Positions 12,650 to 25,721 of a stretch of 64,000 nucleotides of DNA are shown one piece after another (position 1 is the first letter of the stretch; each line of letters opens with the position of its first letter). The DNA comes from Microcaldota archaeon (lineage in GTDB: Archaea; Micrarchaeota; Micrarchaeia; Anstonellales; Bilamarchaeaceae). The translations under genes and the position numbers were made by a program. The stretch lies in NCBI GenBank assembly GCA_016932815.1, contig JAFGCC010000013.1, positions 1 through 64,000 of the forward strand, read 5' to 3'. The notes under the pieces are model-generated. The model was not told the DNA's origin. It made no database searches and was given only the letters and a program-made list of their open reading frames with translations.

Positions 12650-15649
12650 TCACTCTTCTGCCTTGCGCGAGCCTGGGAGGAAATTCTTCATCGCCAGGTA
12701 CAGGATTGCCCCTCCGATTGCCAGCGCAAAGAGCCAGCCTGCCGCAGAGAGGCTAAGCCGGGTTTCCCCTTCCTCCCCCGCATCCGCCCGCCCGGATTCT
12801 GCGCTAAAGAGGAGGTTGTAAATCTGGTCTGGGATTGAAGAAGCGGGAAGAACCCCCTGGCCTTCCCTCTCGCCAGCGCCATCCCCGCCTTCACCGCCTT
12901 CGGAGCCTGGAACTTCCTGGGCCCCTTCGGGCTTGTTGCTTCCGCCTAGTGTCCCACCCTCTGGGGCCTGCGGCGGGGACTGCCCTTCTTCTACGCTCAC
13001 GCAAATATAAGAGCTGCATTCCTCATCCTCCTGGCAGTCGGAATCGTAAACGCACTCGGGAGGCACGCATTCGCAGGAAACGCAGGTTTCGCCAGCCCCG
13101 GTGCACCCGGAATCCGAAAGGCACGCGTCTCCCGGAAGCACGCACCCTCCATCAAGGCATTCCTCGCATTCTCCGCAGCCGGAAGCGCTAGTGCACCCAG
13201 GCTCATAGTAAACTTCAACGCATTCGTAATCCTTGCAAACATGCCCATCCCCGCAGTCCGAATCCCGGGTGCACTCTGGAGCGATGCATTCGCAGGAAAC
13301 GCAGGTGTAGCCTGCTTCGCAGTCCGAATCGGAGAGGCACGCGCCGCCTGGGAGGGCGCACTCATGGGAGCGGCAGGCTTCGCAGTCCCCGCAATCCGAA
13401 GAAGTGAAGCACTCGTAATCTCCCGCGTCGCTCCCCCCATCTTCATCTGGGGAGGGGCTAAGCGCCTGCACCAGGGGCAAATAATCGGTCATCCCAAACG
13501 CGAAGAAATTAGTTTCCCCGATTCCATCATCGTCTTCATCCGTTCCCGTGTAGTTGGAATACCAGTTCCCCCCGGAGCAGTTGCCGCCTACTATGGAGTG
13601 GTTGCCTTCCCCGCAGGAGAGGGAGGTGTTGAGGTAATTGTCCGAACTATCACAATATATGGGGATGCCGGAATCAGTTGCATTGAGTATGTTGTCGTAA
13701 ACCAGGGTCCCCGTGCTATAAGGCAGGGAGAGCTGGTAGAGGAGGTTGTTGTAGAACTTGTTGTGGGCCATCGTAGCGCCCGTGGTATAATAAAGCTTGA
13801 AGCCGCTCCCGTTGTAAGCAGGGTACCCAATCCACGTACTGTCCCATGGGTCGATACTGGAAGGCTGGCTGAAGCCGTAGCCGTTGTTGTATGCCGTATT
13901 GTTCTCCACTATATTGTAATCGGCCCAGTACATCTCGAATCCGTCTCCCTTGTTGTTGTATGCGGTGTTGTTTGCGAATACCGAATTCCAGGCGCAGATG
14001 TAGACGCCCTGGAAATCGTTGTTGTAGGCGGTATTGCCGAAATATAGGTTATCGTTGTACCAGACGTTGATGGAGAAGCCCATGAGGGAACTGTGCCCGG
14101 TATTGTTCTCAAAATTGTCGTACTCCGAGGAAGCTGCCACGAATGAATAGCACTCGTTGTCGTAGGCGAGGTTCCCTGAAACGTTGGTGTGGTTGGAGTA
14201 CTCTCCCACGAAGAATCCGTACCTGGTCCCGTGCGCGGTTGAGGAGCTTACGGTTGCGTAATTGGTGTGCTCAAGATAAAGCCCGTTGTTTGGAATCGTG
14301 GATGAGGGAACCAGGGTGACGTTGGTTATGTTGGAGTAGTGGGCTGCGCAAAGGAAAATCTCCGATGCGGTAATGCCGCTTAGCTCAACCGGCTCATTGT
14401 AGAAATATATCGGGTACCCCTCCGAACCGGTAAGGTTCTCGATTACGTGGTTGCAATGGTTGGGGTCGGTGTCCCAGGCGATTGAGTGCCCGACATCGAA
14501 ATCCATGAGCTTGTTGCCAGCGGCAGTGCTGTTTGCGATTGTGACGTTCTCGGACTGGTGCAGGAGGAACCCGTACGCATTTCCGGAAGACTCGGAGTCC
14601 GTGATTGTCACGTTTTCAGAATAATAGACGATTATGCCATTGCTGTATTCGCTCCCGCTGTCCACGGTTACGTTGGTGAGGGTCGAATCGTCAGCATTGC
14701 AAAGGAAGACCATGGACGCTTCCAGGTTGCTCCAGGAAACAGATTCGTTTGAATAATATATGGGGAGCCCGCCGCTCCCGATGTTGTCTACGAAGAGGTT
14801 GTTGCAGGAGCCCACCTTGTCCCCATACATCCAAATGTCCCGCCCCCACTGCCAGTAGGAAAGCGAGCCGCACCCGTGGCGGGAAATCGTGGAAATCGTG
14901 TTGTTGAAAAAGACGTTCCCAGTCGGCGAGCCCGAGTCCACATTAAGCACCGTGAGCCCATCTGGGACGTTGTATATCGTGTTGTTTAGGATGCTGTTGT
15001 TCTGGCTTGGGACATTCACCCCGCTGTGGAAGTCTATTGCGGACTCAACGCAGTCGTGGAGGATGTTGTACGATATTGAATTGCGATGCGAGCCGCCGAT
15101 TTCTATGCACTGCTGGGCAGTTTCGTAGATGGTGTTGTTTTCAATGTAGCTGTCGGTGGAGTAATCAAAGGTTATCCCCTCATGGGAGTTGTTGTACACG
15201 GTATTGTTTGAGAAGGTGCTGTTTGCAAAATAGTAGAGGTGCACCCCGTCATAGGTCGTGTTGAAGATTGTGAAGTTGGAAATTAGGCAGTTGCTTGTGG
15301 TCCTAAAGCGGACTCCGTCGCGGAATCCGTTAATGCCGCAATTGAGCGCGGTCACGTTTCCCCTGGAGCTAGCATACACCCCATATCCAGTAGTGCCCCC
15401 GTATATCCAGTTGCCCTGGCAGTCAAAAACCTTGTTGCTAAAGCTTGTGGGGTTGTTTATGCAGCTCCCGCTCGCAGATGATAGCGAGGAGTTGAGGTAA
15501 ACCGTGCTATAGCTCCCGTTGTTTAGTGCGGAAATGCAGTCTGCGCACGTGGTGTTGCAGTAGAGCGCGCCATTGTATTCATGGTACGCGAAAGACACTC
15601 CGAGAGCTAAGAATAATACTGAGGCCAGGAAAACTGCGGATTTTTTCAT
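12650..15649 (-). CDS. NosD-like right-handed beta-helix surface protein with Cys-rich repeats and C-terminal TM
   Basis: Signal peptide MKKSAVFLASVLFLALGVSFA; many YNN/ENNTAYNN beta-helix repeats; repeated CxxxxDCxxCxxCxxxxCxxPGxxC modules; C-terminal hydrophobic helix and positive tail. Confidence 0.85.
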   Translation of the reverse strand: MKKSAVFLASVLFLALGVSFAYHEYNGALYCNTTCADCISALNNGSYSTVYLNSSLSSASGSCINNPTSFSNKVFDCQGNWIYGGTTGYGVYASSRGNVTALNCGINGFRDGVRFRTTSNCLISNFTIFNTTYDGVHLYYFANSTFSNNTVYNNSHEGITFDYSTDSYIENNTIYETAQQCIEIGGSHRNSISYNILHDCVESAIDFHSGVNVPSQNNSILNNTIYNVPDGLTVLNVDSGSPTGNVFFNNTISTISRHGCGSLSYWQWGRDIWMYGDKVGSCNNLFVDNIGSGGLPIYYSNESVSWSNLEASMVFLCNADDSTLTNVTVDSGSEYSNGIIVYYSENVTITDSESSGNAYGFLLHQSENVTIANSTAAGNKLMDFDVGHSIAWDTDPNHCNHVIENLTGSEGYPIYFYNEPVELSGITASEIFLCAAHYSNITNVTLVPSSTIPNNGLYLEHTNYATVSSSTAHGTRYGFFVGEYSNHTNVSGNLAYDNECYSFVAASSEYDNFENNTGHSSLMGFSINVWYNDNLYFGNTAYNNDFQGVYICAWNSVFANNTAYNNKGDGFEMYWADYNIVENNTAYNNGYGFSQPSSIDPWDSTWIGYPAYNGSGFKLYYTTGATMAHNKFYNNLLYQLSLPYSTGTLVYDNILNATDSGIPIYCDSSDNYLNTSLSCGEGNHSIVGGNCSGGNWYSNYTGTDEDDDGIGETNFFAFGMTDYLPLVQALSPSPDEDGGSDAGDYECFTSSDCGDCEACRSHECALPGGACLSDSDCEAGYTCVSCECIAPECTRDSDCGDGHVCKDYECVEVYYEPGCTSASGCGECEECLDGGCVLPGDACLSDSGCTGAGETCVSCECVPPECVYDSDCQEDEECSSYICVSVEEGQSPPQAPEGGTLGGSNKPEGAQEVPGSEGGEGGDGAGEREGQGVLPASSIPDQIYNLLFSAESGRADAGEEGETRLSLSAAGWLFALAIGGAILYLAMKNFLPGSRKAEE

Positions 15650-15824
15650 GTTCTTGGAAACTGCGATATAAAATAAAAATCTATTGCTTGGAGCCCCCTG
15701 CCTCCAAGGGATTCTGCGCTTGCCATGCGGGGAATTGGGCAATAAGGCGCGCAGGGGCGTGCGCCTATGGGAGTTCTGCGACTTTTATAAGTGTATGCCA
15801 ATAGAGTATATGACGGTGTGAACG

Positions 15825-18182
15825 ATGAAGGAACTAATAATCCACGCAGAACGCGTTTCATACGAAGTTACAAAGGAAACAAGGCTCGCAGAGAAAATCT
15901 CCGAGGAAGAAAAAAAGGGGGAGATGGAGAACGCGCTCTGGGTTAGAGTTTCCATGGAGAAGGGGGATGAGAACAGCATCGATTCCCTCGTGCAAAAAGC
16001 GGTTGCGGACATTGAGGGGGTTTCGGAGCAGGTGAAAACCCGGAACGTGCTGCTCTATCCGTATGCGCACCTTTTGATGGGCTCAAAGCCCGCCCCGGCG
16101 GATGCGGCAATAAAGATATTGGATAAAATGGCGCAGGAGTTGCGCGAGAAGGGCTTCAACGTAGTCAAGGCTCCCTTTGGGTGGTACAAGAAATTCTCGG
16201 TTTCCTGCAAGGGGCATCCCCTTAGCGAGCTCTCGCGCGTATTCAGCGGGAATGACGCGGGAACGGCTGCCGGAGTTGGGGAATTGGGGATTGAAGAATC
16301 AAAAGAAGCTGCCCTGGAAACCGCAGCCCACGTGATTTATGAGAGCGAGAGGCAGCTCCTAAACAAGGAATTCATAAGCGTATCCAAAAAAGAAGATGGG
16401 CTAGGGACAGTGCTATGGCGCGGGATGAAAGATATCAGCGATGAAGACATCAAAAAAGCCATAGATAATGCGAACGAGTTGGCGGCAAGGGGAGAGCCTG
16501 TGCGCGTGGAATTCATGAGCAGGGATGAGGCATTCAAAAAATGCGGGGACTTTTTCAAAAACGCAGTGCCCCAGAATGCGGAGAGCATCCGCGTCGTTTC
16601 CATAGGCAATCTTCCCCCAGAACCATGCAAGAACAAGCACATCCCTGACATCAACCTAATCAAGGAGATAAAGCTGGAGAAGGTAAAACGGGACGGTGAA
16701 GACGTCAAGGTTTGGTTTTCGGTGGACTTATCCTCCCAAATCAAAACCGATGAGAAAGTTTCCGAGAGCCTGAAACAGGAGAGCCAATTGAGGAGTGTTT
16801 TCTACGTGCTTACCCCGGAAGGGGAACTCGTGGAATCGGACAAGTTCGACTATTCGGGGCACGCCAACCTGCAAAAGTTCGTAACATACGAAACCAAGAA
16901 GACGCGCGCATACGAAAAGGAGCCTCCCCACATAAGGATAATGAAGGAGCAGGAGCTAGTAGACTACGAGCCGGGAACGGATGCGGGAAACTTCCGCTGG
17001 TACCCAAAAGGCAGGCTCATAAAGAAGCTCCTTGAGAGGTCGGTAACCGATTTCTGCATAGACTATGGGGCAATGGAAGTGGAAACGCCCCTCATGTATG
17101 ATTACGAGCACCCTTCCCTCAAAAAATACCTCAACCGCTTCCCCGCAAGGCAGTACGTTGTAAAGAGCGAGAACAAGGAATTCTTCCTCCGCTTTGCAGC
17201 CTGCTTCGGGCAGTTTTTGATGAGCCACGACATGGTCGTAAGCTACAAGCAGCTTCCTTTGCGCATGTTCGAACTAACCCGCTACTCTTTTAGGAGGGAG
17301 CAGACCGGGGAGCTTGCAGGCCTAAAGAGGCTGCGCGGATTCACCATGCCGGATATGCACGGGGTGCTGGCTGATATGAACCAGGCGAAAGCCGAATTCG
17401 AGTCCCAGCTTGAAGCGGGAATGGAATGGCTGGGTTTCGTGAAGCTCCTTGATGGGTGCGAAGTGGGCTTTAGGGTACTCCGCGAATTCTACGAGGAGAA
17501 CAGGGAATGGTACACTTCGCTCGTAAAGAAAATCGGCAAGCCCATCCTGGTGGAACTCTACGACGAGAGATACGCGTATTTCGTTACCAAGTTTGAGTTC
17601 AACTTCGTGGATGCGATGGACAAGGCAAGTGCCTTAACCACCGTGCAGATAGACGTTGAAAACTCCGAAACCTACGACCTCAACTTCGTGGATGAAAAAG
17701 GCGAGAAAAAAAGGCCGCTCCTAACCCATGCTTCCATCTCGGGAAGCGTGGAGAGGGTTGTTTATGCGCTCCTGGAAAAAGAGGCGATGCGCATGGAAAA
17801 AGGGGAGAAGGCCCAGCTTCCGCTCTGGCTCTGCCCCACGCAGGTGCGCATAATACCGATTTCGGAGAAGCACATTGAGTTTGCAGGGGAGGTGCTCAGC
17901 CAGATTGGAGAAGGGGTGAGGGCGGACCTGGATGATACCCCCGAATCCCTTGGAAAGAAGATACGCAACGCACAGAAGGAATGGGTGCCCTACATTGCAG
18001 TAATCGGGGACAACGAAATAGAATCCGGCAAGGTTTCTGTTACAATCCGCGAAACCGGCGAGAAAGTGGAGATGGGGGCGATGGAGCTTGCAAGCATGGT
18101 GCAGGAAAAAACCCAGGGGATGCCATTTGAGAAGCTCTCGCTGCCAATCCTGCTCTCAAAAAGGCCGATATTCAGGGGTTAG
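15825..18182 (+). CDS. thrS: threonyl-tRNA synthetase, archaeal type, with inserted SAD/AlaX-like domain
   Basis: N-terminal archaeal ThrRS editing domain (YPYAHL, KAPFGWYKKFSVSCKGHPLSELSR); class II core (PKGRLIKKLLE, RMFELTRYSFRREQTGELAGLKRLRGFTMPDMH, LPLWLCPTQVRIIPI). Confidence 0.93.
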   Translation: MKELIIHAERVSYEVTKETRLAEKISEEEKKGEMENALWVRVSMEKGDENSIDSLVQKAVADIEGVSEQVKTRNVLLYPYAHLLMGSKPAPADAAIKILDKMAQELREKGFNVVKAPFGWYKKFSVSCKGHPLSELSRVFSGNDAGTAAGVGELGIEESKEAALETAAHVIYESERQLLNKEFISVSKKEDGLGTVLWRGMKDISDEDIKKAIDNANELAARGEPVRVEFMSRDEAFKKCGDFFKNAVPQNAESIRVVSIGNLPPEPCKNKHIPDINLIKEIKLEKVKRDGEDVKVWFSVDLSSQIKTDEKVSESLKQESQLRSVFYVLTPEGELVESDKFDYSGHANLQKFVTYETKKTRAYEKEPPHIRIMKEQELVDYEPGTDAGNFRWYPKGRLIKKLLERSVTDFCIDYGAMEVETPLMYDYEHPSLKKYLNRFPARQYVVKSENKEFFLRFAACFGQFLMSHDMVVSYKQLPLRMFELTRYSFRREQTGELAGLKRLRGFTMPDMHGVLADMNQAKAEFESQLEAGMEWLGFVKLLDGCEVGFRVLREFYEENREWYTSLVKKIGKPILVELYDERYAYFVTKFEFNFVDAMDKASALTTVQIDVENSETYDLNFVDEKGEKKRPLLTHASISGSVERVVYALLEKEAMRMEKGEKAQLPLWLCPTQVRIIPISEKHIEFAGEVLSQIGEGVRADLDDTPESLGKKIRNAQKEWVPYIAVIGDNEIESGKVSVTIRETGEKVEMGAMELASMVQEKTQGMPFEKLSLPILLSKRPIFRG

Positions 18183-25088: not shown

Positions 25089-25161
25089 GCCTCCGTAGCT
25101 CAACGGTAGTAGCGATCGCTTCGTAAGCGATAGGTTGAGGGTTCAAATCCCTCCGGGGGCT
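25089..25161 (+). tRNA. tRNA-Thr (CGT)
   Basis: GCCTCCG...CGGGGGC acceptor; anticodon arm ATCGC-TTCGTAA-GCGAT. Confidence 0.92.
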
Positions 25162-25721
25162 CACAATTCCGCAACCAGCTCCGAGAGTTCTGGAAAACTG
25201 GTGTAGCCCGCTTTTTCGTTGAAGTGCCCAGCATCCTTTACTAGGATTAATTCTGCCCCCAGTCTCCGGGCAAGTTCTTTTTCCAGTTCTAGGGGGACGT
25301 ACGGGTCGTTTTCCGAAGCATACATGTAGAAGGCTCCGCAGTTTTCGCGTATTTTTTCCCAGTTGAACCCCTTTTCCATAAAGCTAGCATTTATGGAATC
25401 AAATTCCGGGATTCCCAGCTTCCCGATGAATCCCGCAACGAAAACGCACGCTTTCACCCTCACTTCCAGGATTTCAAGGAGGGAGAGCACAAACGCAGGG
25501 CCCATGCTATGGGCAACGAAAACCGTATCAGAATCAATTTCACCAAGATAGGGGCGCATAACCTCCATCCAGGAATCAAGGGAATGTCTTTTGGGCGTGG
25601 GGAATGCGGGGACTAAAACACTGTGCCCAAGCTTCTCGAGTTCCAGCTTCAGCCATGGAAACCAGTTTTCCTGCGGATGCCCGCAAGCCCCATGGATGAT
25701 GAAGATGTTCACTGCCCTCAC
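25161..25721 (-). CDS. RBBP9/YdeN-like alpha/beta hydrolase
   Basis: FIIHGACGHPQENWFPWLKLELEKLG, VAHSMGPAFVLSLLE, KDAGHFNEKAGYTSFPEL. Confidence 0.85.
   Translation of the reverse strand: MRAVNIFIIHGACGHPQENWFPWLKLELEKLGHSVLVPAFPTPKRHSLDSWMEVMRPYLGEIDSDTVFVAHSMGPAFVLSLLEILEVRVKACVFVAGFIGKLGIPEFDSINASFMEKGFNWEKIRENCGAFYMYASENDPYVPLELEKELARRLGAELILVKDAGHFNEKAGYTSFPELSELVAEL

Follow-up and report, generated by a model that had tools for sequence, protein, structure and literature searches.

What is a second editing-type domain doing in an archaeal threonyl-tRNA synthetase (ThrRS) that already carries one? Bacterial and archaeal ThrRSs are a textbook case of two unrelated domains having evolved for one job. 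Bacterial and eukaryotic ThrRSs use the N2 domain and archaeal ThrRSs a DTD-like domain (review, PMC11295145), and the archaeal domain travels, being fused to some SepRSs (PMC8762117; PMC5424206). We analyzed 64,000 nucleotides of DNA from a tiny, uncultured micrarchaeon (here referred to as the window; contig 24 of genome G000, an incomplete draft of 1.25 Mb in 25 contigs), in which an earlier note had read one ThrRS gene as encoding the archaeal editing domain followed by an inserted AlaX/SAD-like domain.

Architecture of the ThrRS and identity of the insert

The ThrRS gene (positions 15825..18182, + strand) is a single open frame of 785 aa with two editing domains, and there is not one N across the window. 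The protein matches NCBIfam PRK03991 (threonine--tRNA ligase; E 4e-245), a model that the insert interrupts and whose match restarts at residue 301, and its core and anticodon domain score 814.9 bits against the archaeal equivalog NF003068 (cut-off, 484). Its predicted activity is aminoacylation of tRNA-Thr. Pfam places tRNA-Thr_ED, a piece of tRNA_SAD, tRNA-synt_2b, and HGTP_anticodon on the protein. The archaeal DTD-like domain spans residues 1 to 138 (15825..16238, +; PF08915, E 1.1e-42), nearly the 1 to 140 first proposed. It is followed by a linker delimited by comparison with orthologues that lack the insert (residues 139 to 153; 16239..16283, +) and by the inserted AlaX-type domain, at about residues 154 to 301 (~150 aa; 16284..16727, +), of which the earlier note had marked essentially the whole (16296-16727, residues 158 to 301). 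The archaeal ThrRS linker, class II catalytic core, and anticodon-binding domain make up the remainder (16728..18179, +), as assigned by Pfam, NCBIfam, and the core tree.

Several lines of evidence identify the insert. The Pfam tRNA_SAD model reaches only its C-terminal piece (residues 255 to 292), scoring 20.6 bits in the whole-protein scan, under the 24-bit cut-off, and 25.3 bits, over it, in a six-frame scan of the genome. Longer profiles match the excised insert more clearly, including NCBIfam AlaXM (E 8.9e-13, a partial match under the whole-family cut-off of 300 bits) and the archaeal AlaRS profile (E 1.6e-11). A profile built from this insert and the two others described below retrieved Pyrococcus horikoshii AlaX-S (1v7o/1v4p; E 4e-10) in a PDB search. 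The full-length ThrRS prediction was unusable (pLDDT 45), but an AlphaFold (AF2) model of the insert, with three sequences only as input, reached a pLDDT of 70 and a pTM of 0.70. With this model, Foldseek gave E values of 2.5e-9 to 7e-9 for AlaRS editing domains and AlaX-S, and the TM score was 0.79 normalized to AlaX-S. Profiles, PDB search, and predicted fold thus confirm an AlaX/AlaRS-type editing domain upstream of the catalytic region, as the earlier note had supposed; SAD-family profiles do match, and the predicted fold is that of AlaX.

The note had also raised the relationship of the insert to AlaX and to bacterial ThrRS N2. A tree of 59 different SAD sequences groups the three inserts into a single clade (99/98) that lies on the AlaX/AlaRS side (split, 94/81), with bacterial ThrRS N2 domains in a separate clade (99/99) apart from them. 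The tree does not support an origin from bacterial N2; within the AlaX/AlaRS side, the nearest relative may be AlaX-S, AlaX-M, or AlaRS. Derivation from the AlaX of the same genus was rejected, the match being weak (18 bits).

Compared with known systems, the enzyme shares with archaeal-type ThrRSs (PRK03991; P. abyssi and M. jannaschii) the DTD-like domain with its H/Y/K/E residues, the core, and the anticodon domain, and differs by the ~150-aa addition between editing domain and core. The insert resembles P. horikoshii AlaX-S (1v7o/1wnu) in size, fold, an RxEA region, and a C-x3-H motif without the GG of other AlaX proteins (CNKEH in 1v7o); in contrast to AlaX-S, it is fused within a ThrRS, has Glu for the first His of HxxxH, and is about 23% identical. 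The archaeal AlaRS editing domain (TIGR03683) is matched by profile and fold, but the insert has no C-Ala domain, forms a separate clade in the SAD tree, and sits on a different synthetase. Bacterial/eukaryotic N2 belongs to the same superfamily and has broadly the same position, N-terminal to the ThrRS core, yet differs in its placement in the tree, and the insert is accompanied by no TGS domain. The fusion of SepRS to tRNA-Thr-ED (PMC8762117) is a known example of an editing domain transferred to a different synthetase, with one such domain added there and two different ones present here.

Distribution of the insert

Across 301 Micrarchaeota genomes, the insert profile gave three matches (270 to 306 bits), with every other score at about 50 bits or lower. 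A full-length profile run on 395 genomes, including 94 from other archaea, found continuous full-length matches in the same three and in 0/94 of the others, and the insert profile gave no match above 62 bits in three other archaeal phyla (19, 6, and 156 genomes). Another archaeal phylum yielded ORFs of 770 to 800 aa that match SAD; these were set aside, as the two that were inspected read as AlaRS.

The carriers (the window genome, G034, and G006) represent three genera of one family. The window genome is a draft and the other two are metagenome assemblies, so an AlaX gene fused into thrS by misassembly or misbinning has to be considered. However, the same architecture occurs in the same slot and in frame in all three genera, two of the carriers are independent public MAG contigs, the order of genes around thrS is conserved in the genus, and GC content is even. 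We regard an artefact as scarcely credible, and the independent carriers rule it out in practice. Because the neighborhood is conserved, presence or absence of the insert can be scored at one orthologous locus, and the insert is missing from 5/5 same-genus orthologues. The junctions show that it replaces just the variable linker that follows a KGHPLSELSR motif. Adjoining thrS is an ORF of 1,030 aa (12650-15742, -) for a large, secreted-looking protein with Asn-rich, beta-helix-like and Cys-rich repeats, which has at best a weak match at the same position in the same-genus loci compared.

In a maximum likelihood tree of the ThrRS core, each carrier lies beside noncarriers: the window genome within its own genus (98/85), G034 paired with G032 (98/91), and G006 paired with G009 (100/100). 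On the midpoint-rooted tree, a single gain without transfer costs 17 losses, the alternative being three independent gains. Identities among the inserts (51/36/38%) and among the ThrRS cores (66/52/52%) nevertheless diverge in parallel. Tree cost and parallel divergence point different ways, and either ancient presence with many losses or transfer may account for the distribution.

Active-site residues and second domains in the phylum

The catalytic positions claimed in the earlier note were all located in the insert. The counterpart of the AlaX HxxxH motif is ETAAH (16317..16331, +), with E165 and H169 encoded from positions 16317 and 16329 and invariant in 3/3 carriers (ETAAH/ETTAH/ETISH). 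By alignment, the counterpart of CxxxH is CKNKH (16626..16640, +), with C268 and H272 encoded from 16626 and 16638 (CKNKH/CKNKH/CRHPH in the three inserts). The pattern Glu-x3-His ... Cys-x3-His, which keeps the second His and the C-xxx-H pair as first noted, therefore retains 3/4 AlaX site positions. Every carrier has Glu in place of the first His, a residue absent at that position from the AlaX/AlaRS domains aligned. These residues constitute a conserved, putative metal/catalytic site.

Glu in place of the first zinc-binding His could mean altered or lost catalysis, and the phylum offers examples of loss. In nine ThrRSs that join the archaeal editing domain to a bacterial-type ThrRS with a SAD (L036-L040 and L147-L150), 0/4 SAD catalytic residues are kept in 9/9 cases, whereas 11/11 bacterial-type ThrRSs that lack the archaeal domain retain the full set of four. 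A second domain can thus persist without chemistry, and the insert might likewise be a dead AlaX fold retained as a tRNA-binding or structural module. We consider this unlikely, though the most serious of the alternatives weighed here: unlike those nine, the inserts hold H169, C268, H272, the Glu, and an LPPEPC motif invariant although their overall identity is only 33 to 52%, and the loss of AlaX from the window genome (below) fits a working replacement. Moreover, most free-standing AlaX proteins sampled in the phylum have Asp for Cys (ADGGTH), so that a changed ligand is by itself no sign of death. The pattern suggests a reshaped rather than a lost site, and among the SAD-fold second domains seen in this analysis, only the AlaX-type insert looks able to catalyze. 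As a separate observation, the archaeal domain and a live SAD look mutually exclusive in bacterial-type ThrRS fusions.

These fusions qualify the earlier note's remark that no enzyme with both domains was known. The remark stands for the literature, in which a search that reached few subscription papers found no published ThrRS with both folds; it does not stand for the phylum, since fusions of the archaeal domain to a bacterial ThrRS, with a SAD that is apparently dead, occur in other Micrarchaeota. In two large families, the archaeal domain is joined straight to a bacterial-type core, giving proteins of 560 to 605 aa (L048, L152-L156, and L159). The phylum therefore displays bacterial ThrRS with a live SAD, the archaeal domain with a dead SAD, the archaeal domain without a SAD, and the archaeal domain with an AlaX insert. 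Compact AlaRSs of about 600 aa also occur (L091:124-1929, +, and L090), with a terminal SAD bearing CxGPH and no space for a C-Ala domain.

The linker has received another fold as well. In G018, a fourth member of the family whose ThrRS core groups with those of noncarriers G014 and G008, the ThrRS (L034:1239-3650, -) has a YbaK-type domain in the same linker (PF04073, E 4.8e-14; YbaK_EbsC, E 6e-9). In four ThrRSs of one family, this linker thus houses an editing-type domain, which has the AlaX fold in three and the YbaK fold in one. YbaK relatives have a conserved Lys (AAKC), where the G018 domain apparently has His (AAHC).

Free-standing AlaX and a proposed function

Free-standing AlaX of 211 to 212 aa (HSAAH...CGGTH) is present at a conserved locus in 5/5 same-genus relatives, with flanking genes that read as encoding RNase HII and an EndA-like protein. 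The window genome keeps both flanks and their neighbors, in order and on one contig, around a gap of 593 bp with zero Ns. Neither AlaX nor a recognizable remnant was found in this gap, and none was found elsewhere in the assembly, in which AlaX protein searches match AlaRS only. The former AlaX position (L230, G000:C16:7088-7680) holds a short open frame (MGKYTLARQLSGKKVITNDGEEFGRLVDV...), presumably for a PRC-barrel protein.

No AlaX was found in G034, a genome about 90% complete and searched without a synteny check, and its near relatives G032 and G033 have the gene. The third carrier, G006, retains AlaX beside the insert. Absence from 2/3 carriers versus 2/14 of the others compared is not significant alone (Fisher P = 0.12), and the association of insert and AlaX loss is suggestive; it is strongest in the window genome, where the locus itself could be resolved. 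Domains of the AlaX kind normally serve in alanine-tRNA quality control, and the added domain has the look of such an enzyme moved to a new place.

The first editing domain of the window ThrRS, judged by its residues, is intact: H82, Y121, K122, and E135 align (to 1y2q) with H83, Y120, K121, and E134 of the P. abyssi domain, whose roles have been described (PMC4491819). Pairwise identities had hinted at a relaxed archaeal domain in the carriers, but terminal branch ratios, calculated on a fixed tree, show no elevated rate (ranks 13, 16, and 38 of 63). The window also encodes a tRNA-Thr(CGU) (25089..25162, +) whose discriminator is U73, thought to be the base that the archaeal domain recognizes (PMC11295145). 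Nothing obvious would thus cause the archaeal domain to fail, and loss of U73 is rejected as a motive for the second domain, with the remaining isoacceptors only partly recovered. The picture is one of redundancy or division of labor and not of replacement of the archaeal domain.

We propose that an archaeal ThrRS gained an AlaX-type domain in the loop between its DTD-like editing domain and its catalytic core. The insert would be an active deacylase of AlaX-S character, with Glu165 standing in for the first zinc-binding His, that hydrolyzes Ser-tRNA with little tRNA specificity. AlaX-S hydrolyzes Ser-tRNA(Ala) and lacks tRNA specificity (PMC11295145), so that a domain of this type, once tethered to ThrRS, would remove Ser-tRNA(Thr) in cis and might continue to act on Ser-tRNA(Ala) in trans. 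One protein would then offer two sites of different chemistry, either of which could clear Ser-charged tRNA-Thr, and the insert may also cover part of the Ser-tRNA(Ala) clearing once done by free-standing AlaX.

The domain might instead be an AlaX parked on ThrRS whose main target, reached in trans, is Ser-tRNA(Ala) and which plays no particular part in threonine fidelity, as its affinity to AlaX/AlaRS over ThrRS N2 and the missing AlaX of the window genome and G034 would allow. We hold this to be quite improbable: fusion next to the ThrRS core would keep the insert by Ser-tRNA(Thr), the lack of tRNA specificity of AlaX-S speaks against a restriction to tRNA-Ala, and G006 has both insert and free AlaX. 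On the sequence evidence, we favor with some confidence the reading that a second Ser-tRNA deacylase in cis, probably active, took over from AlaX. More tentatively, and at slightly less than an even chance, the enzyme would have two active, nonhomologous sites, with an AlaX in cis replacing the free gene, and the linker would be a repeated landing site, having received AlaX in three lineages and YbaK in a fourth.

According to one idea (Novoa et al. 2015, cited in PMC11295145), AlaX-S is an ancestral deacylase that is promiscuous toward tRNAs, and the fusion is linked to this idea in that the window genome has reciprocally lost AlaX. An enzyme with both folds lets one ask whether the two sites are redundant, share out substrates, or replace each other.
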